A stretch of 48,270 bases of DNA from positions 1 through 48,270 of the forward strand of contig JAJFUH010000229.1 of the NCBI GenBank assembly GCA_021372535.1. Direction: 5' to 3'. Below, piece after piece: positions 6,154 to 32,386 of the stretch. The notes under the pieces were generated by a model. That model did not search any database. It was not told where the DNA came from and saw nothing but the letters and a program-made list of their open reading frames with translations. How positions within the stretch are numbered: position 1 is the stretch's first letter; each line of letters starts with the position of its first letter. Origin of the DNA: a bacterium. GTDB taxonomy: Bacteria > Latescibacterota > Latescibacteria > Latescibacterales > Latescibacteraceae. The position numbers and the translations under genes are program-made.

Positions 6154-9100
6154 CTATCTGACTCCTGCCGAATTGTTCTCTTCAAGTATTTCCCGAATTG
6201 CGTTATCCGGGTCGACAACCACGTTCAGGTTTCGCGATTTCGGTACATTCGGGAATGTAACCACTTCCCGTTTCGGAATAAAATCCGTCGGCGCATCAAG
6301 CTGAACGATTCTCTGTTCAGCCACCGTTTCCTCGCCGGTGAGGAGCCTCACTAAAACATTCTTCGCGGCGCTGTTGCCGAGATTGTGGACAATCACGGTT
6401 ACTTTCGATTCCGTTCGGCTTATATCACGGGTATCGACAGCGAGATCGGGAAGTTCCGCCGGACGATCAACCCGTTCGATCTGTTCGACTCTGATAACGA
6501 GCGGCGTGTGCGGCGGCACGGGGAGCGTCACCACATCAAAACGGCTCAGCTGCTGCTCTATTTTCCAGATGGCTTCACCCGCTTTACCGGTTCCATCCGG
6601 GTCGCGGTACAGGCCTATCCGGTAACGGCCGTCCTGAATCCTGCAGAGGCGCATCGCAAGGCTGCGTGTCCGGTTGTCGAACGAGTAGCATACTGCTTCG
6701 AGGGAGGTGTCATCCGCTTTGAGGATTATCCGGGCGACCTCGGGTCCGCCGCCGGAGGGCCACATCACCGCAAGCTTGAGATGCGCATCCCATCGCGTTC
6801 CCCGCGATCCACCGAGAAGGTAACGGTATGCGTCATCGGCGCCATAAGGCCTGAAATCGTCACGGTGAATGTTGGATCCGGTATACCGGAAGAAGTTGAA
6901 ATCAGTGCAGGTCGAAGCGAAAAGATGAAGATCGCCGGTTACCTTGTCGAGCGGCTCAGTAACATAGGGCTCGGTCGGAACATCCTTTCCCCAGTACCAG
7001 TTCAGAACGTTGACCGATGATTTGAATGCTCCGCCGTTGCCATAATTGAGCGGTGTCCGCTCGGGATGACCGGAATGCCATGCCGATTCCATCTCACGTT
7101 CGGCGGCATAGGCCTGCCCGAGGTTGTTGACGACGGTGTTGTAGCGCTCGCTGATGAAATCACCCACATGGAGACGGTCGATCGGGTGAATACGGCAGTA
7201 CCCATCCTTGAAAAGCCCGGTCAGCTCGAATTTCGTATGTACCGTGTCAATAACCGCCCGCGCGCTTTCGCTGCCATCGAGCGGAAGATCGGCCTGGTGG
7301 AAACTGATGAACAGCGTGTCGTCATTCCACCCGCCGCCCACCTGCCCGTCCGGGTTCTGGTTCTTCACCCACCAGTCGGCGATACTGTGGCGGAACGTGT
7401 TGTAAATATGCATGTAGAGCGCCCAGTCGGGAGCACCGGACGGGTTGGGAAACCGTATGAGTTCTATGAGCGCCGGATCGGGCGGAGCGCCATCGATGAC
7501 AAACTGCCTCGATTTGGGGCCGCAAAGGAGATCGAGGAAATTCGCGGTGAAATGGTCGGGCTTGACCCGCTTTACCGCCAGCGCAGGCAGAATCATATCG
7601 AAGGGGCCGCCGTAGGAATCGGGATGGTCGAGAGAAACCGTCCTGCCGGTGAATTTCCACGGCATGAATTCGTACATTTTCGAATACTGAGCTTTTGCCG
7701 ATATGATTTCCTTGTCGGCATAGGCATCCACGGCGATATAGGGTGCTGCGGTTGCAACGTAAAGGTGCGCAGGCGATTTGACGTCGCCGAGCGCGAGGTC
7801 GCATCCCCCCGCTGTTCCGAGATCAATCCAGAGACGGTCGCCTCCTGTCAGCACGAGGTCGGTAAAGTCAATGGTGAGGACAAGCGTTCTGAATCCGCCG
7901 GGAAATCCCCTGAGACTGACCGCAAACTGGTTCCAGAGCCGTGACGGTACCGCCGGATCGTGCACCCGGACATACAGAGCCTCGCTGTCTCGTGCGGTTT
8001 TCAAGGGAATGGAAAGCGTGACCGCTGTCACACCGGTGGGATCGGTGAACGGCTCGCTCATTATATTGAGCCGACGGAACGCACCGATGTCGACCGTTTC
8101 ACGTTTGCCCCGGACGTCGCTTCGGGAAGCGAGAGCAATACGCCGCTCATCACGGGCGGTCAGGGCATGGAAAGCGAAATCGTACCGGCTGTCGAGCCCG
8201 CCGGTCATCGGCAGCACGGTATACACCGTACCGGCCGGTTCGGAATTCTCCTGTTTGCCGACATGGTACAACCCCACGTTGTGAATGCGCTTGTCGCCGG
8301 AGACGGGCAGATGTACCGCATCACCCTGAAATCCCGGCGGACACCCATAACCGATGGTGAACGGTATCCTGAATGCCGCTCCTTCTGTCGCGGTGATCAT
8401 CGAGCCATAGAAAAATCGCTCTCCCGCCGGAATGGTGAAAAGATCGGCCTTTTCTTCCCTGTCCGGTGAACCTGCCTGAACGGTTACATCGGTCAGGTTG
8501 CCGGTGACCGTCACATAGTTGACCGCGGCGCCCGGAGGAGTCGGGATATCGACTTTCCCGGCATGGAAATCGGCATCTCCGGGGATGATGGTGAAAAACG
8601 CATATTCGTGCGGCCAGGCCATCTCGTTACGGCCGTCGATGACATACCATCCCGGAATGTGCCCGTCAGTGGCATCGCAGGGCCATACTTCGGTAACTGT
8701 CATGCCGTAATCAGGCGCAGCGACGGGAAGATTTTCGCTCCTGTCCGAGCCGCTGACACGTGCAATACGGCCGATATCATACTGTTTACGGGTATACACC
8801 GTAGATTCATCGCCGGGAGCCCTGTTCGATTTCACGAGGTTCTGAATTTCGGAACGGGACAGCGGGCGATCCATAAGGTAGAGTTCATCATAGGTCAGCC
8901 CCGGCGCGGCGAGGTGAAACAATCCCGGCGGCAGTGTTTCGAACCAGCCGTCGCCGCCCCAGGTTGAAGCGATTTTCTCTCCGTTGAGCCAGAGTTCGAG
9001 CCCGTTCGCCCAGTCCCAGTTGAGCACGACGTGGTTCCAGCGCTCTGAGTCCCAGACCGTACCGGGAGCGAGCTCGTGGCGGACATAGCGGGCATCGCGG

Positions 9101-9633
9101 AGGTAAGCCGATATTTTGAGGTCTTTATCGATATCGATACCGATGAGGTCGCGCTCCTTGCGGCCAAACGCGATGGAAGCCTGCTCGAAGAGGCGGCAGG
9201 CGTAGGGAGGTTTCCCTTTCGCCCAGAACGCAATTGCTCCGAGCCGTGGGCTGATTCTGCCTTCGCCCCACCAGAAGGGCTCGTAGAAACCGTACGACTC
9301 CGAACCCCATGTGGGTAGTATGGCGATATCGAAAATAACCGCTGTGGTGAGATCAAGGTCTGTTCCCGTCATGTTGTCGGTATCCGGCATCTGCGGAATG
9401 AAACCGAGATGAATCCCCTTACCGAATCTGCCTTCAGGGAAATCGATCCTGCGTTTTTCGAGGGACATTTTCCCCGATTGGGTGATAAACTCATCGGCGA
9501 GAAAATCCGTCGTATCGAACGACATATGGCAGGTGACCACGGAGCGACGCGGCCCGATGGTGTCACTTCCGGCGGCTGATGTTCCAGCACCGGTTAACAA
9601 CAGACATACTGCAAGCCACAGGGTGACATGCAT
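6154..9633 (-). CDS. Large exported protein with LamG-like and CARDB domains
   Basis: A signal peptide (MHVTLWLAVCLLLTGAGTSA) starts this 1159-residue protein. Residues ~30-270 resemble a LamG/concanavalin-A-like jelly roll (CHMSFDTTD, GAIAFWAKGK, WNHVVLNWDWANGLELWLNG, YDELYLMDRPLS). The centre (~280-1050) is rich in Trp, Tyr and Gly; I cannot assign it to a family. Phrases such as WWVKNQNPDGQVGGGWNDD resemble alpha/alpha-barrel polysaccharide-active proteins, but this is weak. The last ~100 residues match a CARDB adhesion-like domain (PDLAVDTRDIS, VTVIVHNLGNSAAKN, REILEENN). Role inferred: surface or secreted carbohydrate-binding protein. It is the last gene of the metal-uptake strand run, 76 bases after a permease. 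The RBS (AAAGGGGG) lies in a possible self-pairing leader. Confidence 0.75.
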   Translation of the reverse strand: MHVTLWLAVCLLLTGAGTSAAGSDTIGPRRSVVTCHMSFDTTDFLADEFITQSGKMSLEKRRIDFPEGRFGKGIHLGFIPQMPDTDNMTGTDLDLTTAVIFDIAILPTWGSESYGFYEPFWWGEGRISPRLGAIAFWAKGKPPYACRLFEQASIAFGRKERDLIGIDIDKDLKISAYLRDARYVRHELAPGTVWDSERWNHVVLNWDWANGLELWLNGEKIASTWGGDGWFETLPPGLFHLAAPGLTYDELYLMDRPLSRSEIQNLVKSNRAPGDESTVYTRKQYDIGRIARVSGSDRSENLPVAAPDYGMTVTEVWPCDATDGHIPGWYVIDGRNEMAWPHEYAFFTIIPGDADFHAGKVDIPTPPGAAVNYVTVTGNLTDVTVQAGSPDREEKADLFTIPAGERFFYGSMITATEGAAFRIPFTIGYGCPPGFQGDAVHLPVSGDKRIHNVGLYHVGKQENSEPAGTVYTVLPMTGGLDSRYDFAFHALTARDERRIALASRSDVRGKRETVDIGAFRRLNIMSEPFTDPTGVTAVTLSIPLKTARDSEALYVRVHDPAVPSRLWNQFAVSLRGFPGGFRTLVLTIDFTDLVLTGGDRLWIDLGTAGGCDLALGDVKSPAHLYVATAAPYIAVDAYADKEIISAKAQYSKMYEFMPWKFTGRTVSLDHPDSYGGPFDMILPALAVKRVKPDHFTANFLDLLCGPKSRQFVIDGAPPDPALIELIRFPNPSGAPDWALYMHIYNTFRHSIADWWVKNQNPDGQVGGGWNDDTLFISFHQADLPLDGSESARAVIDTVHTKFELTGLFKDGYCRIHPIDRLHVGDFISERYNTVVNNLGQAYAAEREMESAWHSGHPERTPLNYGNGGAFKSSVNVLNWYWGKDVPTEPYVTEPLDKVTGDLHLFASTCTDFNFFRYTGSNIHRDDFRPYGADDAYRYLLGGSRGTRWDAHLKLAVMWPSGGGPEVARIILKADDTSLEAVCYSFDNRTRSLAMRLCRIQDGRYRIGLYRDPDGTGKAGEAIWKIEQQLSRFDVVTLPVPPHTPLVIRVEQIERVDRPAELPDLAVDTRDISRTESKVTVIVHNLGNSAAKNVLVRLLTGEETVAEQRIVQLDAPTDFIPKREVVTFPNVPKSRNLNVVVDPDNAIREILEENNSAGVR

Positions 9634-9636
9634 GGA

Positions 9637-9700
9637 ATTACCCCCTTTGGATTCACTGAGAAAAGATTTGCTTCATTTGCGAAAATTACAGGGGGGTAAT
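9637..9700 (-). promoter_or_regulatory. Leader stem that may sequester a ribosome-binding site
   Basis: On the minus strand the leader of the LamG gene contains ATTACCCCC (9692-9700), about 50 bases upstream of GGGGGTAAT (9637-9645). The second arm contains the ribosome-binding site, 4 bases from the ATG. They form an uninterrupted 9-bp pairing that would hide the site. No T-run follows, so this is not a terminator. Regulation is inferred. Confidence 0.45.
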
Positions 9701-15700: not shown

Positions 15701-17965
15701 TTAAACGATTCCTTTTAAGTATCTTCCAGTATAACTCCTTTTACACTTAATCAAATCTTCAGGAGTTCCTTCAAACAATATTTCTCCACCTTTAGAACCT
15801 CCCTCAGGACCCAAATCTATCACCCAATCAGCGTGTTTAACAACATCAAGATTATGTTCTATAACAATCACAGTATTGTCATTATCAACCAGATTCTTTA
15901 TTATTTTCATTAATCTATCAATATCTGCCATATGCAAACCAGTTGTTGGCTCATCCATAACATAAACATTCCCTTTTTTATGTAATTCTGATGCCAGCTT
16001 GATTCTCTGGCATTCTCCACCTGACATAGTGCTTAGCGGTTGTCCAAGTTCTAAATAATCTAGGCCGACATCGCATAAAATCCCAAGTTTTCTTTTGATT
16101 TCTTTATTCTCAAAAAAATCAACTAATTCTGTAATAGTCATATTAAGAGCATCAAAAATACTTTTTCCATTATATTTCAATGCTAAAACTTTTTCAGTAT
16201 ATCTTTTGCCGTTGCATTCATCACAAGTAACTTTGACTTCATCCATAAAACTCATTTCATAACTTATTGTTCCAAGCCCCTTACATTTTGGGCATGCTCC
16301 TTTGGAGTTAAAACTGAATAAAGAAGGATTTGAATTTGTTACATGTGCAAATTCTTTTCTGATCAGATCAAAAACTCCAATATAGGTTGCAGGATTAGAA
16401 CGAGAAGATTTTCCCACAGGAGACTGGTCAATGATAACTGCATCTTTATTCTCCTTAACAAAAACATCATTTATCAAACTGCTTTTCCCTGAACCTGCAA
16501 CTCCAGTTATGCAAGTTAAAACTCCTTTTGGAATTTTTGTAGAGACATTCCTTAGATTATGCAAAGATGCATTTTTAATCTCGATATAATCCTGCCATAT
16601 TTTCCTATAATTATTAACTTTCTCGTTTTTGTTCAAATACTCAGCAGTCAATCCTTTTGATTTCTTTAAGCCTTCAAAGGTTCCAGAATAGATTATTTCT
16701 CCACCCAAACTTCCTGCTTTTGGCCCAATATCAATAATGTGCTCTGCACATCTGATTAATGCAGGGTCATGTTCAACAATAAAAACACTATTACCTTTCT
16801 CTTTTAGCTTAACTAGTATTTCAATTAGTTTGTTAATATCCCTTTGATGAAGTCCTATAGACGGCTCGTCCATTATATACATCATATCTACTAAATCGCA
16901 ATCAAGCTGTCTTGCCATCTTTACTCTCTGGCTTTCTCCTCCTGATAAGGTAGCAACTGAACGGTTCAAAGAAAGATAGCCCACACCAATCTCGATCAAG
17001 TGAGAAAGAATCTGCCTCATCTTCTGAACCATTGGCTTTGCAATATCTCCTTTAATAGTTCCGAGATAATCATAAAGGTCATTGAATTCCATATTTATTA
17101 ATTCAGAAATTGTTTTTCCATTCACTTTTACACTTCTTGCTTTTTCATTTATTCTTGAACCGCCACAGGAATCGCAATCAGAATAAACAAAATATCTTTG
17201 ATAGGCATCTTTCCTCTCTTTGGACAATTCCTCTTTTGCTTTATTTACATATATCCTCTCGAGTTTTCTGGCTATGCCCTCAAAGTTCTTTGAATATGTT
17301 CCAGCGCCATGCTTTTTTTCAATAGGAATAGACTTCACATAAAGAAAATCATTCAATTCTTTTTCTGAGAAATCCTTTAGCTTCTTATCCACATCAAAAA
17401 GACCTGCTGCAATCATCTCTCTCCAGTTCCATCCTCCAACCTTATGGTCAGGATGGTTAATTGCTCCCTCCCTAATTGTTTTTTCCTTATCCAAAAGCAT
17501 ATTTACATCAACTTTAATCTGTTTTCCTAATCCTTTACAATGTGGACACATACCCAATGGATGGTTAAACCCAAAAACAAATGAGGGTCCTATAAACTTG
17601 TCACCACATCTGGAAAAAAGGAGCCTTAGGTAAGTATACAACTCCGTTGCTGTTCCAACAGTGCTTCTTAAGGTAGTCCCCATTCGTTTTTGGTCAATAA
17701 CAATTGCTGTCGAAATATTTTTTATCTCTTCGACAGGTGGTTTGGACAGTTTAGGCATCCTTGCTCTTGCAAAGGAAGAAAAAGTTTCAATAAGTTGCCT
17801 TTGAGACTCAGTGTAAATTGTATCAAAAACCAATGAAGATTTTCCAGAACCAGAGACTCCTGTAAATACAACTAATTTATTTTTGGGAATTTCTAATGAA
17901 ACATTCTTCAAATTATGAGTCTTTGCATTTTTTATTATTATTTTATCGTGATTCATTTTTTTCAC
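15701..17965 (-). CDS. UvrA2-type ABC ATPase (short UvrA paralogue)
   Basis: At 754 residues this is shorter than excision-repair UvrA (~940) and matches the UvrA2/DrrC-like group that lacks the UvrB-binding insert. NBD1 has Walker [10 protein letters not shown] (36-44), a signature LSGGESQR and Walker B with [12 protein letters not shown]2 has [17 protein letters not shown] and MDEPTTGLH. Zinc-binding pairs are visible as CPHC...CDSC and CPKC...CDEC. Paralogues are linked to tolerance of DNA-binding drugs rather than core repair. Base composition is clearly AT-rich compared with neighbours. It overlaps the DUF3795 gene by 23 bases; the second ATG (17956) is an alternative start. Probable horizontal acquisition. 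Confidence 0.88.
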
Positions 17966-18693: not shown

Positions 18694-19299
18694 TTAAACT
18701 ATAGGGTACCTCTAATAATTCCTTTTAGGGTGAGCGAATTATAAAAAAAGTCACATTTATTTCTCAAAGCCCCCTTCCTGCCCTTCGGGCATCCTTCCTC
18801 CGAGGGGGCAGGAACTAACCGTGGTGCAACGACTTCCCTTGCCCCCTCCGGGGGACACGAAGCGCAGCGTAGAGCCGCGAAGCGCAAGGGACCGAGGGTC
18901 AGGGGGCTGTAGTTAAAAAACTCGCCTTTTTTTAACATCTGTAAAACGACTTTTACAAAAGGCCCGAGTTATAAAATTCATGGCTGCATGTAAGTAGTAT
19001 AATATTGCATAATAGACCGTAATACCAAAAAAAATATTTGCAGGACAATACCGGTATAGAATCGGACGTCATTTTTTATAATCAGCCGTTGTTTTGTCCG
19101 CAAAAATATCATCTGACCATATCCTTTTATGAGATACACCCGTTAAACATGAACAGATTTGAATAATTGACATTAATGAGTGAATGTAGTATTTTGGTTG
19201 ACAAGAGCATAAATTATAAATACTATGAATATTAAAATCTTCAAAACCTTTCTTCAATAAACAATAACACTTAACTCTTTAAGAAAGACACACGTTTTC
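18694..19299. other. Intergenic region with GC-rich palindromic element
   Basis: About 600 bases without a supported gene. The middle (18757-18912) is a GC-rich repeat in AT-rich DNA, described separately. From 18940 to 19299 the DNA is AT-rich leader for the E1 gene; no clear promoter is visible. Confidence 0.6.
18757..18912. repeat. GC-rich nested inverted-repeat element
   Basis: Outer arms AGCCCCCT and AGGGGGCT bound the element. Inside are CCTGCCC/GGGCAGG, TGCCC-TTC-GGGCA and GCCCCC-TCC-GGGGG hairpins. The composition contrasts sharply with the flanks, and it abuts the truncated PadR-like gene. It resembles a non-autonomous interspersed repeat; no coding sequence is supported. Confidence 0.55.
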
Positions 19300-21294
19300 G
19301 TGTCTGAACTCAGGATCAAACGATACCCACAGAAGCTAACCCGGCAGGATTTTTATCCGCTCGCTTATTATTATATGTACCTTACACGGCAGCTCGAAAA
19401 CCGTATGATCGAGTTGTTTCAAAAAGGATACATCAAGGGTACGGTAACGATAAGCAGCGGAAATGAGGCTACCGCTATCGGTATGGCTCTTCCTCTGAGA
19501 CCGTGCCTCGATGTGGTTACATTCATGCACCGTGATATAGCTTCTCATCTTATTATGGGAGTCAAACCTTATACCCTGCTCTGTCAATATATGGCGAACA
19601 GGGAAAGTCCGACTCACGGATGCGAGGGGAATGTCCACCACGGCGATGTCTGCAATCGTCGGTTTCCCATGATAAGCCATCTCGGCAAGATGTTCAGTCT
19701 CGCTGTGGGGGGCACATGGGCCGCACGCCGTAAAGGCGATGGTGCGTTCGGATTGACGATCATCGGCGACGGCAGCAGCAGCACGGGTGAATTCCACGAG
19801 GCGCTCAATATCGCTTCTATCCACCATGTGCCTGTGATCTTCCTCATCCAGAACAACCATTACTCCTTCTCGACTCCGACAGAATTTCAGTACAACTGCG
19901 CCAGTCTGTCCGATCGCGCTCATGGTTATGGTATCAAGGGTGTGACCATCGACGGCACCGACCCGTGGGAAGTCTACAGCACGGTCTTCGATGCGTTGGC
20001 CGCCATGGATGCCGACCCGGCGCCGACGCTCATCGAGTGCGATACCATCCGTCTTCATGGTCATGCCGTATATGATAAAGCCGAATATATCACCCCTCAA
20101 CAGCGGGAAGAGTTTCTGAAGCGCGACCCTGTTCCGAAAACGCGCCGCATACTCAATGAGACATATTCGTTTCCCGAGGCTGATATCGCCGCCATGGAAC
20201 ATGAAATCGACAGCGATGTTCAAAAAGCGATCGACAGCGCTCTGAAAGTTCCCCGCCCCGATGCTCAATCCCACGCATGGACGGTATATGCCGACTCACC
20301 GGCTACCCGAATCGAGCCGTTCAGGGCCAAAAAGATCAAGAATGGTGACGCGGTCAACCACGCCCAGGACTATATCCTCGCCCATAATCCCGGAGCCGTC
20401 CTTCTCGGGCTCGATGTCGGCACATATGGTTCGGCATTCAAGACCAGCAAGGGATTGATCAAACGTTATGGCCCCGAGCGCGTCATGGACATGCCACTGA
20501 GCGAATCGGGCATCATGGGATTTGCCCTCGGCGCTTCTCAGGTCGGCATCGAACCGATCGTCGAATTCCAGTTCGCCGATTTTTCCACGGAAACCGTGAC
20601 ACAGCTCGGTCTCAATACCGGTACATGGTTTACCCGTTCATCTCAGGGAGTGCCTATGCTCGTGCGGCTGCCCTGCGGCGGCGGGCTGACTCTCGGACAA
20701 TTCCACTCTGGCGAATACGAGGGCCTCTGGTCGCTGTTCCCGGGCTTGAAGCTGCTCTATCCTTCAACGCCCCAGGAAACTTTCGAAGCGCTTGTCGCAG
20801 GATTTTACGACCGTAATCCCTGTCTTGTGTTCGAAAATAAACTCCTGTACTGGAACAAAACCGGGGATATCGATTTCGATGGCGACCTCAAAGCGGTATG
20901 GCGACCCCGCAGGTATACGGAAGGCGGTGACCTGACCATCGTTGCCATCGGTGCGATGATCGACCAGGCTCTCTCGGCAGCAGCCCAGTCGGGTTATTCC
21001 GTCGATGTATGGAATCCTTTTGTCTTGAAACCGCTCGATCTTGGCCCCGTCATGGAATCAGTCGAAAAGACGGGGAAATTGATTGTGGTGCAGGAAAGCG
21101 GCGAATCCCAGGGGATAGGCAACCGTATTATTTCCCTGATTACCCAGGAATGTTTCAGCTTTCTGAAGAACCCGCCGAAACTCATTGCTGCTCCGGATGC
21201 GATGGCTCCTTTCGCACCGGAGCTCGAAGCCTGTTTCAGGCCGAATGCACAGGGTATTCTGGAAACGATTAAAAAATTACTCGGAGAAAGGTAA
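19300..21294 (+). CDS. 2-oxoacid dehydrogenase E1, alpha and beta subunits fused
   Basis: A 664-residue thiamine-diphosphate enzyme. Residues ~10-330 are E1-alpha: the ThDP motif runs from GDG (156-158) to NN (185-186) with GEFHEAL between, and a phosphorylation-loop-like region SLSDRAHGYG follows. Residues ~345-664 are E1-beta (LLGLDVGTYG, LSESGIMGFALGA, VEFQFADF, VRLPCGGG, FHSGEYEGL). Such fusions decarboxylate a 2-oxoacid and pass the acyl group to a lipoyl domain. The start is GTG at 19300; an in-frame stop lies upstream and no better start exists. The RBS is weak and the start lies in a small hairpin (19290-19303). The stop overlaps the next start (TAATG), so the next gene is translationally coupled. 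No E2 acyltransferase core or E3 is in the window. Confidence 0.88.
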   Translation: MSELRIKRYPQKLTRQDFYPLAYYYMYLTRQLENRMIELFQKGYIKGTVTISSGNEATAIGMALPLRPCLDVVTFMHRDIASHLIMGVKPYTLLCQYMANRESPTHGCEGNVHHGDVCNRRFPMISHLGKMFSLAVGGTWAARRKGDGAFGLTIIGDGSSSTGEFHEALNIASIHHVPVIFLIQNNHYSFSTPTEFQYNCASLSDRAHGYGIKGVTIDGTDPWEVYSTVFDALAAMDADPAPTLIECDTIRLHGHAVYDKAEYITPQQREEFLKRDPVPKTRRILNETYSFPEADIAAMEHEIDSDVQKAIDSALKVPRPDAQSHAWTVYADSPATRIEPFRAKKIKNGDAVNHAQDYILAHNPGAVLLGLDVGTYGSAFKTSKGLIKRYGPERVMDMPLSESGIMGFALGASQVGIEPIVEFQFADFSTETVTQLGLNTGTWFTRSSQGVPMLVRLPCGGGLTLGQFHSGEYEGLWSLFPGLKLLYPSTPQETFEALVAGFYDRNPCLVFENKLLYWNKTGDIDFDGDLKAVWRPRRYTEGGDLTIVAIGAMIDQALSAAAQSGYSVDVWNPFVLKPLDLGPVMESVEKTGKLIVVQESGESQGIGNRIISLITQECFSFLKNPPKLIAAPDAMAPFAPELEACFRPNAQGILETIKKLLGER

Positions 21295-22622
21295 TGAACG
21301 ATAAAGCTTTTCAAATGTCACTCTATCTCCCCATACAGGGTCTCACTGAGACAGTCGTGACAGTCGTTGAATGGCAGGTTGCGGAAGGTGATCATTTTGA
21401 AAAAAATCAGGTCATAATGCTCTATGAAACAGCCAAAGCGCTTTATGACTTCGAGGCTCCCTGCGCCGGGAAAGTGGTAAAACTTCTCCGGCCAGCGGGA
21501 GAAATTGTCCCGTATAATGAGCCGATCATGGAGATCGAAACAACCGATTCTGGCATGAAAAACTGGATTCCGCCCGCTTTTACCGAACCCGTCGAAGCGG
21601 ATGTCGACGTTGAGGAAAGCATGGTATCCCCGGCGGTAACGAACGAGGTGGTCAATGATGGTACCACCATTCTGGGTATCGGCGGGTACCTTCCGTCACG
21701 GGTGGTTACCAACGAGGAGCTGGTCGTGGGTTTTCCCGAGATCAACGCCGATTATATATACCAGGTCAGCGGCATTCGTGAGCGACGGTGGGCCGCGAAT
21801 GGTGAAAAACCCTCGGACATGGCCTACAAGGCATCAATCGATGCCATCAGGGATGCGGGAATACCGAAAGAAGACATCGATGCCATCATTCTTTCCACGA
21901 CCACGCCTGATTTCGCGATGCCATCCACCGCATGTATCCTGCAGAACCGTCTGGGTCTCAGGGGCATACCTGCCTTCGATCTCAACGCCGCATGTTCCGG
22001 CTGGCTCTATGCGGTCTCGATGGCACGCGGAATGATTCTTTCCGGACTGGCAAAAAATGTCCTCACTGTGGGTGTCGATTTGCAATCACGTCTCCTGGAT
22101 AAATCGGACCGGAGCACATACTTCATTTTCGGCGATGGCGCCGGCGCTGCGGTCATTTCTTCCGGAACTTCCGGCCACCTGATCCGCAGAATAATCCTCG
22201 GAGCAGATTCGAAGGGACTTCGCATGGCGCGGCGTGAGGAGCCCGGCTATTGCATTTCCGAAGGCTGCGAAGATTTCGATCCATGGATTCGCCTCGAGGG
22301 TCCCGCGCTTTTCCGGTTCGCGACAGAGAGTTTTGCCAAGCTGATCCGCGATGTCATCATTAAAAGTGGCTGGAAACCGGCGGAAACACGGTGGGTTATC
22401 CCTCATCAGGCAAACGGGCGGATTCTCAAGGCCGCTGCAAAACAGAGCGGTGTTTCCTTCGACCGTTTCTATCTCAACATCGAAACGGTGGGAAATACAT
22501 CGAGTGCGAGTATACCGCTGGCGCTCGTGGAAATTAAAAACAGCCTCAAACCGGTCGATAAGCTCATTCTCTGTTCGGTCGGAGCAGGAGTGACATCGGC
22601 TGCCATTTCGGTGGAATGGTGA
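21294..22622 (+). CDS. Lipoyl domain fused to ketoacyl-ACP synthase III
   Basis: Residues 1-85 form a biotinyl/lipoyl domain with ETAKA, predicting lipoylation of K48. A linker rich in Pro, Glu and Val leads to a full KAS III (FabH-like) domain (~120-442). The catalytic triad is intact: C234 (NAACSGW), H371 (PHQANG) and N401 (VGNTSS); the 30-residue His-Asn spacing equals that of FabH. No E2 acyltransferase catalytic domain is present, so the acyl-lipoyl arm sits on the ketosynthase itself. Together with the coupled E1 fusion this suggests the ketosynthase is primed directly by a decarboxylated 2-oxoacid. The acceptor, probably malonyl-ACP or an acyl thioester, is unknown. The ATG at 21294 follows GGAGAAAGG. 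Confidence 0.88.
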   Translation: MNDKAFQMSLYLPIQGLTETVVTVVEWQVAEGDHFEKNQVIMLYETAKALYDFEAPCAGKVVKLLRPAGEIVPYNEPIMEIETTDSGMKNWIPPAFTEPVEADVDVEESMVSPAVTNEVVNDGTTILGIGGYLPSRVVTNEELVVGFPEINADYIYQVSGIRERRWAANGEKPSDMAYKASIDAIRDAGIPKEDIDAIILSTTTPDFAMPSTACILQNRLGLRGIPAFDLNAACSGWLYAVSMARGMILSGLAKNVLTVGVDLQSRLLDKSDRSTYFIFGDGAGAAVISSGTSGHLIRRIILGADSKGLRMARREEPGYCISEGCEDFDPWIRLEGPALFRFATESFAKLIRDVIIKSGWKPAETRWVIPHQANGRILKAAAKQSGVSFDRFYLNIETVGNTSSASIPLALVEIKNSLKPVDKLILCSVGAGVTSAAISVEW

Positions 22623-22744: not shown

Positions 22745-24706
22745 ATGTCATATCCGAACCTCTTCAGCCCCATTAAACTCGGCTCAGTCGAAATGCCCAA
22801 CCGAACGGTGATGGCCCCGATCAACAACGGCCTCTTGAGCACCGATGAAACATGGCCGTTCCAGACAATCCGCTACTACGAGGAACGCGCAATCGGCGGT
22901 ATCGGCCTCATCATTACCGGCGCAGTCCGTGTGAGCACGCTCGCGGGAATCCCGAAAGTGGGTATCTTTCACGAACGCTTCATCCCTTCACATAAAAAGC
23001 TGGTCGACCGTATCCACAAGTACGATACGAAAATCTTCTGCCAGCTTACCCTCAACGGCGGTAAAGTCGGAAAGGAAGCCCCTTCCGCAATCTATAATCC
23101 CGCGTACCCGTGCAGACCGCCGGAACTGACCACTGAACAGCTCGACGGTCTTGTGGAAGACTTCATCAGGGCTGCGGGATACGCCCGCGAAGCCGGTTAC
23201 GACGGCGTCGAGATTCATGGCGGGCATACCTATTTTGTCGGACAGATGATGTCGCCGTCCACCAACAAACGGACTGACAAGTACGGCGGCTCGTTCGAGG
23301 GAAGGATGAAATTCCCTGTCGATGTCCTTGAAGGAATAGCACGGGAATATCCAGGATTTGCGGCGGGCATCAAATTCAGCGCATACGAGGAACTTCCCGG
23401 GGGGATCGATATTCCGCTCGGTATTGAAATCGCAAAGCGCCTCGCCTCTCTGAATCCTGCGTATCTCCATGTGAGCACGACATCCACATCCCTCATGATC
23501 AAGAGCCGGTGGTCATCAGTTCCGCACATGTATATCACGAGGAACACCCTCATGCCGCTGGCGGAAAAGGTTAAAAAAGCCTGTACCGGAGTACCAGTCA
23601 TGGGAACCGGCGGGATAACCGTTCCCGAGGATGCGGAGCGGTTCATCGCCGAAGGAGCCTGCGATGTGGTTGCGCTCGGCAGAACGGTGCTGGCGGACCC
23701 CCACTGGCCGAACAAGGCGAAGGAGGGGAAAGCGAAAAACATCACCCCGTGCATACGGTGCAATCTCTGTTATTACCAGCTCTGGTCCAGCGAGCCGCTC
23801 ATCTGCACCATGAATCCCTATCTCTCCCATGAGAACGAACTGCACTTCACTCCAGCCGACCGCAGGAAAACAGTCATGGTAGTCGGCGCGGGACCTGCGG
23901 GTATACGGTGCGCGCTTACCGCTGCGAAACGCGGGCATGATGTGACTCTGTATGAAAAGATGCCGTACATCGGAGGCATGGTGTATCCGGGCGGGAAACC
24001 GCAGTTCAAGGATGATCTCCAGCGTGTGCTGAAATGGTATGAAACGGAGCTTGCCGAAAGCACGGTCACCGTAAAGCTCAGTACCGAAGTCACCCCGGAG
24101 CTCGTCGAGGAGGAAGCGCCCGATGTTCTCGTGATCGCGGTCGGCGGTGATGTCATAAAACCCGGCATTCCGGGGATCGATCAGCCGCATGTCGCATCGG
24201 CGATCGATGTGCTCCGTGATGTGTCGAAATACAGAGGCACAAAAGCCGCTGTCATCGGCGGCGGCGAGGTGGGATGCGAAGCCGCCTGTTATCTTGCCGA
24301 CAACGGGTTTAAAGAAGTGACAGTCATCGAGATGCTCCCCGACCTCATGCCGCAGAGCAACAAAATTATCCTCAACCATATGGAGCTGCTCCTCGAAGAC
24401 CGGAACATCAAGGTCATGACAGGTACCCCGGTCACCGCAATCACTCCCGAGGGTATAGAGGTTTGCCTCAAGAGCGGAAAGCTCTGGGGAATCGAAGCTG
24501 ATCTTGTTGTCTATGCGGTCGGTATCAAGACACCTGGTCAGCAGATCGTATCTTCCGGGCCGGCGATGAAAGTACAGCCCAAGAGCGGTCTCATCCCGGC
24601 GCTCTCGATGAAAGCGGAGGAAGTGTATGTCATCGGGGACTGCACCTGCGTCGCCCGTATCCTCGAAGCGACCGCGGAAGGAGAGCGCATCGGACGGTGG
24701 GTGTAA
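22745..24706 (+). CDS. Old-yellow-enzyme/2,4-dienoyl-CoA reductase family flavoprotein
   Basis: A 653-residue multidomain reductase like FadH and BaiCD. Residues 1-330 are the FMN TIM barrel (GVEIHGGHTYF, then SPSTNKRTDKYGGS). Cys336, 339, 342 and 354 (CIRCNLC...C) should hold a 4Fe-4S cluster. Residues 377-653 are an FAD/NAD(P) module (VVGAGPAG at 379-386; AAVIGGGEVGCEA). Electrons would flow NAD(P)H-FAD-FeS-FMN to reduce an activated C=C. The usual barrel AHGY is altered to GGHTY, so substrate geometry may differ. AAGGAG lies 6 bases before the ATG. It follows the ketosynthase by 122 bases on the same strand, so it may act on its product. Confidence 0.85.
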   Translation: MSYPNLFSPIKLGSVEMPNRTVMAPINNGLLSTDETWPFQTIRYYEERAIGGIGLIITGAVRVSTLAGIPKVGIFHERFIPSHKKLVDRIHKYDTKIFCQLTLNGGKVGKEAPSAIYNPAYPCRPPELTTEQLDGLVEDFIRAAGYAREAGYDGVEIHGGHTYFVGQMMSPSTNKRTDKYGGSFEGRMKFPVDVLEGIAREYPGFAAGIKFSAYEELPGGIDIPLGIEIAKRLASLNPAYLHVSTTSTSLMIKSRWSSVPHMYITRNTLMPLAEKVKKACTGVPVMGTGGITVPEDAERFIAEGACDVVALGRTVLADPHWPNKAKEGKAKNITPCIRCNLCYYQLWSSEPLICTMNPYLSHENELHFTPADRRKTVMVVGAGPAGIRCALTAAKRGHDVTLYEKMPYIGGMVYPGGKPQFKDDLQRVLKWYETELAESTVTVKLSTEVTPELVEEEAPDVLVIAVGGDVIKPGIPGIDQPHVASAIDVLRDVSKYRGTKAAVIGGGEVGCEAACYLADNGFKEVTVIEMLPDLMPQSNKIILNHMELLLEDRNIKVMTGTPVTAITPEGIEVCLKSGKLWGIEADLVVYAVGIKTPGQQIVSSGPAMKVQPKSGLIPALSMKAEEVYVIGDCTCVARILEATAEGERIGRWV

Positions 24707-24748: not shown

Positions 24749-25546
24749 TTACCAGTTTTTGTATCCCGGCGCGGGGACAGGCTGCTGGAGACCGTCCACG
24801 GGAATGTGACGGCCGTTGATCCAGTAGGCGCGCGGCGATGCCACGAACACGATGACATCGGCGATTTCCTCGGGGCTGCCGAGCCGGCCCATGGGGAAAC
24901 TTTCGCGCCGATAGGTCTCGAATGCATCGGGATTCTTCTGACGCCATTTTTCCCAGATTCCATCGGGGCTGATCATGGAGCCCGGCGAGATGGTGTTCAC
25001 CCTGATATTGTCGTGCACGAGTTCGAGCGCCAGCGGCTCGGCAAGAAAAATAAGCGAATTCTTCGCCGCACCGTACTGGCTTCCCTTCGCGAGCTGGGGC
25101 AGCCATCCCGAGACGGAGGCGATATTGATGACCGATCCGCCGCCCCGCTTTCGCATGAACGGAACGGTGAGTCGTATCATTCGCACAGTCTGGAATACGA
25201 TATTATCGAATGTTTTATGCCAGTCCTCGTCGGTGGCCTGAAACAGGCTGTCGCCGAACCGTTTACCCACATTGTTTATCAGGATGTCTATCCCGCCCAG
25301 CTTGTCCGCCGTCTCACCGGCAACACTCTCCGCTTCACTCGGAATACAGACATTCGCACGGATTCCATGAGCCCGGACACCTTGAGCGCGGAGCTCTTCG
25401 ACCACTCTCCCGATCGTTTCCTCTTCATCGATCGAGCAGACACAGACATGAGCGCCTTCTCCGGCAAATGCACGCGCAGCCCGCAGCCCGAGACCGTTCG
25501 TTCCGCCCGTTATGAGGACAACCTTATCCTTCAACTTCAAATCCAT
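24749..25546 (-). CDS. Short-chain dehydrogenase/reductase
   Basis: A 265-residue classical SDR. Cofactor motif TGGTNGLG (13-20), NNVG (91-94), catalytic S144 with Y158 and K162 (YGAAK), and the NTISPGSM segment after the active site. It has no Asp/Arg pattern that clearly decides NAD versus NADP. It has a perfect Shine-Dalgarno (AAGGAGG). It is convergent with the reductase gene, so it is not in that operon, but proximity suggests it may reduce or oxidise the ketone produced by the same pathway. Substrate unknown. Confidence 0.85.
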   Translation of the reverse strand: MDLKLKDKVVLITGGTNGLGLRAARAFAGEGAHVCVCSIDEEETIGRVVEELRAQGVRAHGIRANVCIPSEAESVAGETADKLGGIDILINNVGKRFGDSLFQATDEDWHKTFDNIVFQTVRMIRLTVPFMRKRGGGSVINIASVSGWLPQLAKGSQYGAAKNSLIFLAEPLALELVHDNIRVNTISPGSMISPDGIWEKWRQKNPDAFETYRRESFPMGRLGSPEEIADVIVFVASPRAYWINGRHIPVDGLQQPVPAPGYKNW

Positions 25547-28752: not shown

Positions 28753-29757
28753 ATGAGAAAAAAGAACTGCATCTGCCTTTTAACTGTAATCGCAGTGATG
28801 CTCGTCTGGACGATTATTCTTTCAGGATGCGGATCCCGCGGCGCAAAACCGGTCAAGATAGGTTTTCTCGTGTCCAACCCCGAGCAGACGTGGTTCCAGA
28901 ATGAATGGCGCTACGCCCAGAAGTGCGCGGACAGGTATGGATTCGAGCTGATCAGGATCGGGGCTACCGACGGCGAAAAGACACTTGCCGCAATCGACAA
29001 CCTGGCTGCCCAGGGTGCGCAGGGATTCGTCATATGCACGCCGGATGTCCGTCTGGGTCCGGGGATTCTGGCACGCGCTGCTTCATACAGGATGAAGGTG
29101 ATTACCGTGGATGACCAGTTTGTCGGTTCAGACGGTTCATTCATGGATGTCCCGTATATGGGTATCTCCTCGGTATCGATCGGATGGTCGGTCGGAAAAG
29201 CTCTCCATGAGGAGTATCTGAAGCGCGGATGGACAATCGATGACACCGCTGCGCTCGCTGTCACATTCGAAGAGCTCAATACCTGCAAGGAACGTACCGA
29301 CGGGGCCACGGAGGCTTTGATCGAAGCGGGTTTCCCCGCTGAAAAGATTTTCAGGGCACCCCAGAAACACAGCGATGTGCCGAGCGCATTCGATGCGGCG
29401 AATGTCACGGTGACACAGCATCCCTATATCAGGCACTGGCTTGTCTATTCGGTCAACGACGAGGGTGTGCTCGGTGCTGTCCGGGCGCTGGAAAATCGGG
29501 GCTTCGGAGCCGATTCGGTCGTGGGTATCGGCATTGGCGGAGATGTGTCGAAATCGGAGTTCGAAAAGAGCGAGCCGACCGGTTTTTTCGCCACGTGCCT
29601 TCTCAATCCATACCGCCACGGCTATGAAACCACCGAATATCTCTACAAATGGATCAAGGACGGCATCGAACCCCCGAAAGACATACGGACAACAGGGGTG
29701 ATCGTAACCCGTGAAACCAGGGCGGGTATTATGAAGGAATTGGGCTTATCGGATTAA
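28753..29757 (+). CDS. Sugar-binding lipoprotein, AraF-like copy 1
   Basis: A lipobox ILSGC puts the lipid on C26. The rest aligns with E. coli L-arabinose-binding protein AraF through its length: GFLVxxPE.xWFQNEW, DGEKTLAAIDNLAAQGAQGF, ICTPDVRLG, VDDQF, the RT after the hinge, NDEGVLGAVRALENRGFGAD and a C-terminal ITRE-type end. AraF sugar contacts K10 and E14 are replaced here by S41 and Q45; the Asp pair (VDD), the Arg and one Asn (VND) are kept; N232 is Gly (IGIGG). It is therefore AraF-fold but probably binds a different sugar. First gene of the importer cluster. Confidence 0.85.
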   Translation: MRKKNCICLLTVIAVMLVWTIILSGCGSRGAKPVKIGFLVSNPEQTWFQNEWRYAQKCADRYGFELIRIGATDGEKTLAAIDNLAAQGAQGFVICTPDVRLGPGILARAASYRMKVITVDDQFVGSDGSFMDVPYMGISSVSIGWSVGKALHEEYLKRGWTIDDTAALAVTFEELNTCKERTDGATEALIEAGFPAEKIFRAPQKHSDVPSAFDAANVTVTQHPYIRHWLVYSVNDEGVLGAVRALENRGFGADSVVGIGIGGDVSKSEFEKSEPTGFFATCLLNPYRHGYETTEYLYKWIKDGIEPPKDIRTTGVIVTRETRAGIMKELGLSD

Positions 29758-29784
29758 GTCGGGGATGGATCGGGGATGGTATTC

Positions 29785-30789
29785 ATGAACATTACTTTTT
29801 TCAGAAAACATACGGCATCGATCATCACATTGTTCGCCGTATTACTCATCTGCGGCAGCTGCGGGGACAGAGGCGAGAAAAGGATAAAAATCGGGTTCCT
29901 CGTCAAGCGTCCTGAGGAAATATGGTTCCAGAACGAGTGGAAAGGCGCCCAGGTATGCGCGGATAAACTCGGTTTCGAGCTCGTTAAAATCGGGGTGACC
30001 GACGGCGAAAAAACGCTCGCTGCCATCGACAACCTCGCAGCACAGGGAGCGCGGGGATTCGTCATCTGCACACCGGATGTCCGTCTGGGACCGGCTATCA
30101 TGACAAAGGCGCGCGCGTATGGCATGAAAGTCGTCGCGGTGGATGACCGTCTCGTCGATGCGGAGGGCAGGCCCATGGATGTCCCGTACCTGGGTATGGA
30201 TGCCGCGGAGATCGGGAGGATTGTCGGAAAAGCCCTCCATGAGGAATTGGTAAAACGCGGCTGGAATCCCGATGAGACCGCCGCCCTCGCGGTCTCGTTC
30301 AACGAACTCGAAACATGCCTCGACCGGACAGGCGGAGCAATGGAAGCGCTGGTTGGAGCCGGGTTCCCTGCGGAAAAAATCTTCAGCGCCCCGGTCAAAA
30401 CTACCGATATACCCGGCGGATTCGATGCATCGGATGCCGTATTCACTCAGCACCCTACTGTAAAACGGTGGCTCCTGTTCGGCTGCAATGACGAGGGTGT
30501 GCTCGGCGGGGTACGCGCCCTCGAAAACCGTGGTTTCGGGGCGGAATCGGTGATAGGAATCGGAATCGGCGGAAGCTCGACAAAATCCGAGTTTGAAAAG
30601 GAAGTGCAGACAGGTTTTTTCGCGACGGTATTCGTGAATGCCGCCATGCATGGATTCAGGACAACGGAAATGGTGTACCGGTGGGCCGGGGATGGTGTCG
30701 AGCCGCCGAAAGAAACGGCGACAGTCGGGAAGATCCTCACAAAAGACACCTACGGAGAGGCATTGCAGGAACTCACCCTCTCACAGTGA
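29785..30789 (+). CDS. Sugar-binding lipoprotein, AraF-like copy 2
   Basis: A tandem paralogue of the preceding gene, with the same length and a lipobox (ICGSC, C26). An ATG at 29776 is in frame, but MNITFF at 29785 gives a normal signal. Here the AraF sugar contacts are conserved: K41 and E45 (LVKRPEE), VDD, R before T in DRTGG, and CND; only the N232 equivalent is Gly. This copy is closer to true arabinose-type specificity than copy 1. Both feed the single AraG/AraH-type transporter downstream. The interval is only 27 bases. Confidence 0.85.
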   Translation: MNITFFRKHTASIITLFAVLLICGSCGDRGEKRIKIGFLVKRPEEIWFQNEWKGAQVCADKLGFELVKIGVTDGEKTLAAIDNLAAQGARGFVICTPDVRLGPAIMTKARAYGMKVVAVDDRLVDAEGRPMDVPYLGMDAAEIGRIVGKALHEELVKRGWNPDETAALAVSFNELETCLDRTGGAMEALVGAGFPAEKIFSAPVKTTDIPGGFDASDAVFTQHPTVKRWLLFGCNDEGVLGGVRALENRGFGAESVIGIGIGGSSTKSEFEKEVQTGFFATVFVNAAMHGFRTTEMVYRWAGDGVEPPKETATVGKILTKDTYGEALQELTLSQ

Positions 30790-30874
30790 AAATAGTACAG
30801 GCCATGACATCTCGGGTACCGGGAAACTATAAAAAGAAACTTGCGCTTAATGAAAGTACCATCGATTGACCGAA

Positions 30875-32386
30875 ATGACCCAATCAGATAATACGGCGTA
30901 TCAGCCCTACCTTGCGTTCGAGGGAATCGGCAAATCCTTCCCGGGAGTGCGGGCGCTCGATGATGTATCGTTGTGCGCCGGGGAAGGAACGGTGCATGCC
31001 CTTATCGGAGAAAACGGCGCGGGGAAATCGACCCTGCTCAAGATACTCTCGGGCGTATACGCTCCCGATTCGGGAACGCTTAGCCTCGAAGGGATTCCCC
31101 GGACGTTTCAAAACACACAGGACGCCATCAGGGCCGGGATAGCGGTAATTTACCAGGAGCTCCACCTCGTGCCGGAGATGAGCGTCGCCGAAAACCTTCT
31201 CCTGGGACATCTGCCGAATCGTTTCGGCCTGGTGCAGAAAAAAAAGGTACGGGAACTCGCGGCTGCGACACTCGAATCTCTCGGTGAGACAGTCGATCCA
31301 GCTGTCAGAATCAGCGCTCTTCCCATAGCCCAGCGTCAGATGATCGAGATCGCAAAAGCCCTCATGCGCGACGCAAAGGTGATTGCATTCGACGAGCCGA
31401 CGAGCAGCCTGACCGAACGTGAGGTCAAAAAGCTCTTCGCTGTCATCGGGAGCCTTAAACAAAGCGGCCATGTGATCCTCTATGTTTCCCACCGCCTTAA
31501 CGAGATATTCGAAATCTGCGATTCGGTAACGGTGTTCAGGGACGGTAAGGTTGTCGAAAACTGCGGGGACATCTCGAAAGTCAACCATGACTACCTTGTC
31601 AAGCGCATGGTGGGGCGATCCATCACGGATATTTACAGTTATGCTCCGCGCCCCCACGGAATTCCTGCCCTTGAAGTCGAGGGACTGACCGGACCGGGGC
31701 TGACCGGACCGGCTAACCTGACCGTGGCGCAGGGCGAGACCGTGGGGATTTTCGGGCTTGTCGGCGCGGGCAGAACCGAACTGCTCAAGCTTATCTGCGG
31801 AGCTGTGAAACCACGATCGGGCACAGTCCGGATACACGGGGAAAAAGTCGCGGTCAACAGTCCGGCATCGTCCATCAGGCATGGTCTCGTATTCACTCCT
31901 GAGGACAGAAAAAACGAGGCGGTTTTTCCGCTCGGCTCAGTATGCGAGAACATCAATATCGCCGCACGTCGCATTGTATCGCGATGGGGACTTATCAGCG
32001 AATCGTGGGAACGGACAAACGCCGAGAAATTTATCGGCATGCTCTCGATCAGGACACCGTCGGCAGACCAGCTCATGAGGAATCTCTCGGGCGGGAACCA
32101 GCAGAAGGTGATACTTGCTCGGTGGCTTTCGGAACGTGTCAGGGTCATGCTGCTCGACGAGCCGACACGGGGAATCGATGTCGGTGCGAAAAGCGAGCTC
32201 TACGGAATCATATCACGGCTCACGGCAGAGGGGATCGGGATCGTCGTCGCTTCGAGCGAGCTCCCCGAGATTCTGGGCATATCCGACCGTATCATTGTCA
32301 TGCGCCAGGGAATGATGACCGCATCGCTTTCACGCAGCGAGGCGGATGAAGAGCGTATCCTGCACTATGCCCTGCCGGTCGCATGA
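30875..32386 (+). CDS. AraG-like sugar ABC transporter ATPase (two NBDs)
   Basis: Frame is open from a TTG at 30866; the ATG at 30875 is the better start. Two nucleotide-binding domains as in AraG, RbsA and MglA. NBD1 has Walker A GENGAGKST and Walker B IAFDEPTSSLT, with signature LPIAQRQM in which the usual Gly is Ala. NBD2 has the degenerate Walker A GLVGAGRTE normal for this class, with canonical LSGGNQQK and LLDEPTRGIDVG. It energises sugar import with the permease downstream. It is followed by a 100-base gap. Confidence 0.88.
   Translation: MTQSDNTAYQPYLAFEGIGKSFPGVRALDDVSLCAGEGTVHALIGENGAGKSTLLKILSGVYAPDSGTLSLEGIPRTFQNTQDAIRAGIAVIYQELHLVPEMSVAENLLLGHLPNRFGLVQKKKVRELAAATLESLGETVDPAVRISALPIAQRQMIEIAKALMRDAKVIAFDEPTSSLTEREVKKLFAVIGSLKQSGHVILYVSHRLNEIFEICDSVTVFRDGKVVENCGDISKVNHDYLVKRMVGRSITDIYSYAPRPHGIPALEVEGLTGPGLTGPANLTVAQGETVGIFGLVGAGRTELLKLICGAVKPRSGTVRIHGEKVAVNSPASSIRHGLVFTPEDRKNEAVFPLGSVCENINIAARRIVSRWGLISESWERTNAEKFIGMLSIRTPSADQLMRNLSGGNQQKVILARWLSERVRVMLLDEPTRGIDVGAKSELYGIISRLTAEGIGIVVASSELPEILGISDRIIVMRQGMMTASLSRSEADEERILHYALPVA

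Follow-up and report, generated by a model that had tools for sequence, protein, structure and literature searches.

The lipoyl arms of 2-oxoacid dehydrogenases are the textbook donors of acyl groups to coenzyme A (CoA). NapB/NapD reportedly form a cassette of an E1-like thiamine diphosphate (ThDP) enzyme, a lipoyl domain, an acyltransferase, and an acyl carrier protein (ACP), and are said to group with the Qnc and SclQ systems. In QncN/QncL/QncM and SclQ, an E1-like ThDP enzyme, a lipoyl domain, an E2-type acyltransferase, and an ACP provide a glycolyl unit for nonribosomal peptide synthetases (PMC6335953). Our literature search returned no lipoyl-ketoacyl-ACP synthase III (KAS III) enzyme and no description of a condensing enzyme joined to a lipoyl arm. 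Here, we analyzed a pair of overlapping genes, encoding a single-chain E1 and a lipoyl-KAS III fusion, from a bacterium of the Latescibacteraceae (assembly GCA_021372535.1, contig JAJFUH010000229.1). The stretch analyzed, referred to as the window, is the entire 48,270-base contig, part of a 5.35-Mb metagenome-assembled genome (MAG) that is 95.9% complete. We consider it reasonably probable that the pair works as a 2-oxoacid dehydrogenase complex reduced to a minimum, with KAS III standing in place of the E2 core and feeding condensation with malonyl-ACP, bypassing acyl-CoA. If this is true, fatty acid or polyketide synthesis would gain a new entry route, a lipoyl arm that donates directly to an enzyme forming C-C bonds, independent of acyl-CoA pools and compact enough to serve as a module for branched starters made from 2-oxoacids.

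The E1 gene starts with GTG at 19300 and stops with TAA at 21292-21294. Pfam places E1_dh (1.9e-52), Transket_pyr (1.5e-24), and Transketolase_C (4.2e-24) on the one chain, which divides into an alpha part (approximately residues 26 to 321) and a beta part (approximately residues 345 to 653). The ThDP motif is complete (GDGSSSTG...IQNN), and full-length alignment to solved pyruvate dehydrogenase (PDH) and branched-chain 2-oxoacid dehydrogenase (BCKDH) E1s leaves the active-site regions unbroken, in agreement with a first-pass annotation of this DNA that had described an intact E1 alpha-beta fusion. The alpha part is closest to branched-chain E1s and the beta part to the Geobacillus PDH, and this homology does not single out a substrate. 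The start of the fusion gene overlaps the E1 stop in the sequence TAATG (21292-21296), also as annotated.

The second protein carries an N-terminal E2-type lipoyl domain, a linker, and a FabH-type KAS III domain (Table 1). It scores above both NCBIfam KAS III cutoffs (PRK09352, 310 bits versus 249; fabH, 293.6 versus 292.1), Pfam ACP_syn_III and ACP_syn_III_C together span residues 228 to 442, and alignment to Escherichia coli FabH confirms the C234-H371-N401 triad of the KAS III that was annotated as joined to an ETAKA lipoyl motif. Pfam found neither an E3-binding (peripheral subunit) domain nor an E2 acyltransferase catalytic core in the fusion. Biotin in place of lipoate was considered and excluded, since E45-T-A-K48-A is of the lipoyl type and not of the biotin EAMKM type. 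In the AlphaFold model, the KAS domain has a per-residue confidence (pLDDT) mostly of 90 to 98 and a target-normalized TM score of 0.94 to the Neisseria FabH 4ryb, and pLDDT falls below 50 over residues 53 to 118, linker included. The lipoyl fold itself was badly modeled because the alignment held just one lipoyl sequence. Entries for Mycobacterium tuberculosis FabH W42A/R46A/R161A mutants also turned up in the fold comparison of the KAS domain.

Residues of the KAS domain that would contact the acyl donor were compared with those of E. coli FabH and of 116 KAS III proteins, which were drawn from the fetched loci and form 55 clusters at 70% identity. C112, H244, and N274, the catalytic residues, are invariant in all 116 and kept in the fusion. 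In FabH, T28 and W32 touch the CoA adenine, and R36 touches the pantetheine part (PMC4606726, PMC9040583); the fusion has isoleucine for T28, tyrosine at position 32 (tryptophan in 114 of the 116), and valine at position 36 (arginine or lysine in 114 of the 116). Among the 35 columns that are ≥90% conserved, it departs at four, namely, W32, F115, G183, and G291. The ACP-docking residues K214, R249, and K256 are represented by R, R, and K. An enzyme primed by acyl-CoA would be expected to keep its CoA site, and the comparison could thus have contradicted the proposed bypass. The pattern fits a putative non-CoA donor combined with an ACP acceptor, and an acyl-ACP donor would fit it also. Under the former proposal, the CoA-site changes give a sharp prediction on donor use.

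The remainder of the genome is consistent with a system that lacks an E2. The first-pass annotation had seen no E2 core or E3 nearby; neither adjoins the pair, and the absence of the E2 catalytic core (PF00198) extends to the whole window genome, with zero matches in a search that was positive in 10 of 14 control genomes. Matches to PF00364 number three: the fusion, a biotin carrier belonging to a carboxylase subunit (motif EAMKL), and a membrane-fusion-like protein whose match is weak and partial. The fusion therefore holds the only E2-type lipoyl domain in the genome; two GcvH proteins are also present and belong to a different class of lipoyl acceptor. LplA/LipB (lipoate ligase/octanoyltransferase) and LipA were found, as was one true Lpd (E3), the sole one in the genome, on another contig (C50:66854-68227; 490.7 bits versus a cutoff of 408.8). 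Lipoylation and reoxidation of the arm are thus possible, and the lipoamide reoxidation route that the annotation said would be needed has a canonical candidate. An ordinary FabH is encoded separately in a plsX-fabH-fabD cluster, which frees the fusion KAS from a housekeeping role.

From these observations, a mechanism can be proposed. E1 alpha-beta, acting on a branched-chain or pyruvate-like 2-oxoacid, would decarboxylate it and reductively acylate the lipoyl group on K48; the arm would then swing into KAS III on its linker of ~40 residues, and the acyl group would pass from the lipoyl group to C234. Decarboxylative condensation with malonyl-ACP would give 3-oxoacyl-ACP, the single Lpd of the cell would reoxidize the dihydrolipoyl arm, and no acyl-CoA intermediate would be formed. 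A route from E1 through the lipoyl arm to a KAS-made C-C bond had been suggested in the first-pass annotation; what it has gained is the missing E2 core, the loss of CoA contacts, and a split version in Amycolatopsis (below), and we infer from sequence the lipoylation of K48, each transfer step including that to C234, the condensation, and the identity of extender, substrate, and product.

The split version occurs in a cultured strain, Amycolatopsis acididurans K13G38 (loci L152 and L172), in which genes for E1alpha, E1beta, a free 77-residue lipoyl protein (ETDKV), KAS III, and a 3-hydroxyacyl-CoA dehydrogenase follow one another, with a FAS1-type dehydratase upstream and no E2 core in the E1alpha-E1beta-lipoyl-KAS III operon. 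Its lipoyl and KAS segments appeared joined in tblastn; translation revealed stops between them, and a fusion was therefore rejected in favor of a split operon. Condensation, reduction, and dehydration by these enzymes would together amount to one round of 2-oxoacid-primed elongation. Phylogenetically, the A. acididurans KAS III belongs to an 18-member actinobacterial clade (support, 100/100) that excludes the fusion KAS. Other members of this clade adjoin ccrA and a 3-hydroxybutyryl-CoA dehydrogenase, or mevalonate genes, and the closest homologues in Streptomyces plasmids lie beside ccrA/HCDH or mevalonate genes and not beside E1. Given the distance between the two KAS III proteins in the tree, E1 and a lipoyl domain seem to have been joined to two different KAS III lineages, and the pairing looks convergent, with at least two origins.

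No other fetched KAS III locus among 299 genomes of the Amycolatopsis family has a lipoyl gene next to it, and 395 further actinomycetes yielded several E1 pairs with a free lipoyl protein and none with KAS III. Six actinomycete loci (L241, L252, L258, L244, L247, and L257) have E1alpha and E1beta followed by a free lipoyl protein of 79 to 90 residues and no E2, in sugar-kinase-like, short-chain dehydrogenase/reductase (SDR), or CoA-transferase-like contexts. A. acididurans itself has a second E1alpha-E1beta-free lipoyl set with no adjoining KAS III (L174, contig C77, 2849-5007, minus strand). Downstream of its operon is an 800-residue protein (L172:14266-16668) that has no Pfam match and looks ThDP-type by eye; it adjoins a PapA-like acyltransferase (L173:107-1351).

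Several results weigh against the proposed mechanism. The first-pass annotation had suggested looking for the same fusion in other genomes, and no fused relative was found in 64 genomes of the same phylum, in plasmids (where matches begin at or near the KAS domain), in viral contigs, or in two limited scans of ~85,000 genomes; E1 alone was likewise absent from the viral contigs. One of these scans was a DNA pattern that placed a lipoyl ETxK motif 66 to 86 codons ahead of a FabH N terminus, using one Glu codon and restricted linker lengths; it returned 110 stretches, 80 of them readable, and a true lipoyl gene just before KAS III was present only in A. acididurans, the remaining 79 being judged ordinary FabHs or chance. 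Within the genomes searched, the fused form is known from a single MAG. As the pattern demanded a lipoyl motif before KAS, the A. acididurans locus counts as supporting and not as blind evidence, and its KAS III retains the CoA residues and has no ACP patch, a pattern that would be expected if its extender were malonyl-CoA. The fusion retains R151, the second adenine-stacking residue, and the loss of R36 is not a pure CoA signal because this residue is also implicated in ACP binding (PMC9040583). No ACP gene was recognized among the neighboring open reading frames (ORFs), not every small ORF having been searched. Finally, the fusion KAS domain has the longest branch in the KAS III tree, which is compatible with relaxed selection or with some new chemistry other than condensation. 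A different lipoyl fusion was seen in the same phylum: an 801-residue protein (L209, G051:C210, 1483-3888, minus strand) in which an N-terminal lipoyl domain (NTDKA) is fused to E1 alpha-beta, from its sequence a self-acylating E1-lipoyl arrangement.

Chemistry other than condensation is the basis of the alternative that fares best, although we regard it as unlikely: KAS III might substitute for E2 with no C-C bond made, moving the acyl group from the lipoyl arm to its cysteine and on to an acceptor (ACP, CoA, or a hydroxyl), in the manner of CerJ and PtmR. Acyl transfer as the sole activity is documented for some KAS III-like enzymes (PMC7466098, PMC4425429), and lipoyl-to-carrier transfer has a functioning precedent in the QncN/QncL cassette of E1, lipoyl domain, acyltransferase, and ACP (PMC6335953). 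However, the fusion keeps the whole condensing Cys-His-Asn triad, which transferase-type relatives alter (Cys-His-Asp in CerJ; PMC4425429), and the dehydrogenase and dehydratase that adjoin the A. acididurans KAS III both require a 3-oxoacyl product.

More doubtful again is the possibility that the lipoyl domain is a relic of fusion or a docking module, with E1 serving other proteins and the KAS primed by acyl-CoA or acyl-ACP of other origin. A fusion seen once, on a long KAS branch, is what such a history could leave; the loss of the CoA site suits an acyl-ACP donor equally well, and the genome has a second E1 pair without an E2. Yet the genome would then offer E1 no E2-type lipoyl acceptor at all, the two GcvH proteins being of a different class, and both the lipoyl motif and the lipoylation genes are intact in a protein whose gene overlaps that of E1 translationally.

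The second E1 is a two-subunit enzyme on contig C181 (L048, G000:C181:9500-26490; 7722-9697). A congeneric genome (G007) has the order E1alpha-E1beta-E2-pfkB-Gfo/Idh, with an E2 that is complete (lipoyl, E3-binding, and catalytic domains), whereas the window genome has E1alpha-E1beta-Gfo/Idh on one unbroken contig, E2 and pfkB being gone and the 0.5-kb gap retaining no trace of E2. The missing E2 is thus more than an assembly hole at that locus, and the C181 E1 has no obvious acyl acceptor save the lipoyl-KAS fusion or GcvH. It might, alone or with the adjacent E1, feed the lipoyl-KAS arm as a replacement for its lost PDH-like E2, and like the window E1 it has no other E2-type lipoyl acceptor; we hold this to be very improbable, since the translational overlap makes the window E1 the likelier dedicated partner and a GcvH-like or nonlipoyl acceptor may serve the C181 enzyme. 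Least credible is an assembly chimera or decaying gene, an idea invited by the MAG source and the want of a close homologue for a selection test, against which stand unbroken frames of 664 and 442 residues on one 48-kb contig, the retention of all catalytic residues in both genes, and the comparable operon of A. acididurans, which comes from a cultured strain.

Returning to the preferred reading of the pair as an E1-fed ketosynthase, we give about an even chance to its fuller form: a CoA-independent ketosynthase served by a tethered lipoyl arm, which would have arisen on at least two occasions, in fused form here and in unfused form in Amycolatopsis, and which in this genome would remain after loss of the only E2 of the cell.

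Table 1. Features of the E1/lipoyl-KAS III region, in window coordinates
Feature	Position	Strand	Details and basis
Promoter-like site upstream of gene pair, TTGACA-17-TACTAT	19198..19226	+	Consensus scan; weak
Single-chain E1 alpha-beta ThDP 2-oxoacid dehydrogenase	19300..21294	+	664 aa; Pfam, NCBIfam, E1 structure alignments
ThDP/Mg-binding motif GDGSSSTGEFHEALNIASIHHVPVIFLIQNN	19765..19857	+	E1 aa 156-186; read from sequence
Lipoyl domain-linker-KAS III fusion	21294..22622	+	442 aa; ATG 21294, TGA ending 22622
E2-type lipoyl domain	21318..21542	+	~aa 9-83; Pfam PF00364 (Biotin_lipoyl) 8.3e-12 over aa 16-81
K48, predicted lipoylation site within ETAKA	21435..21437	+	Read from sequence
Flexible linker, acidic/Pro/Ala-containing	21543..21659	+	~aa 84-122; Pfam gap and AlphaFold disorder
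FabH-type KAS III domain	21663..22619	+	aa 124-442; NCBIfam fabH/PRK09352 above cutoff, AlphaFold model
Degenerate CoA site: I150, Y154, V158 replacing FabH T28, W32, R36	21741..21767	+	Alignment with 116 homologues
C234, acyl-accepting catalytic cysteine (FabH C112)	21993..21995	+	Alignment
H371, catalytic (FabH H244)	22404..22406	+	Alignment
N401, catalytic (FabH N274)	22494..22496	+	Alignment
Old yellow enzyme (OYE)/FadH-like FMN and FAD/NAD enoate reductase	22745..24706	+	653 aa, 122 bp downstream of fusion; Pfam/NCBIfam
FabG-like SDR, convergent	24749..25546	-	265 aa; Pfam/NCBIfam

The promoter-like site ahead of the pair is graded weak because such sites are not in excess across the region (9 observed versus 6.2 expected from shuffles). 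The gap before the enoate reductase contains no forward terminator-like site; this gene likely shares a transcript with the pair, and its product could be a downstream reductase, a candidate for a later step in the pathway. The OYE-type enzyme was excluded as an E3, its FAD domain being without the Lpd-type CxxxxC. The convergent FabG-like SDR is only a loose candidate for the 3-oxoacyl reductase. Elsewhere in the window are a UvrA-like tandem ATPase (754 residues, 15701-17965, minus strand), by eye shorter than canonical UvrA and possibly a UvrA paralogue, and tandemly duplicated periplasmic sugar-binding lipoproteins (28753-29757 and 29776-30789) followed by a simple-sugar ABC ATPase (30866-32386).

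Set beside described systems, the pair resembles the E1-E2-E3 complexes of PDH and BCKDH in its alpha2beta2-type ThDP E1, its E2-type lipoyl arm on a flexible linker, and the presence of an E3 in the cell, and it differs in having KAS III in the position of the E2 core and neither an E2 acyltransferase core nor an E3-binding domain. With FabH, the fusion KAS shares the fold, the Cys-His-Asn triad, the basic ACP-docking residues, and a score above the NCBIfam fabH cutoff, but it has a lipoyl domain at its N terminus and I/Y/V in place of T28/W32/R36. As proposed for the pair, E1 in the Qnc, Nap, and Scl systems charges a lipoyl domain whose acyl group serves biosynthesis and does not pass to CoA; theirs is an E2-type acyltransferase and an ACP that pass on an intact acyl unit, whereas the lipoyl domain of the present fusion is attached to a condensing enzyme. 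The A. acididurans operon has the same order, the same four functions, and no E2 core, yet it consists of four separate genes, has the motif ETDKV, and uses a KAS III of another (actinobacterial) subfamily. In the carbazole pathways, CqsB3/CqsB1 and NzsH/NzsJ likewise have a ThDP enzyme that acts directly before a KAS III-like enzyme, but there it yields a free alpha-hydroxy-beta-keto acid with no lipoyl carrier (PMC7466098). The pair is best read as putatively 2-oxoacid dehydrogenase-like up to acyl-lipoyl and FabH-like from the acyl-enzyme onward.

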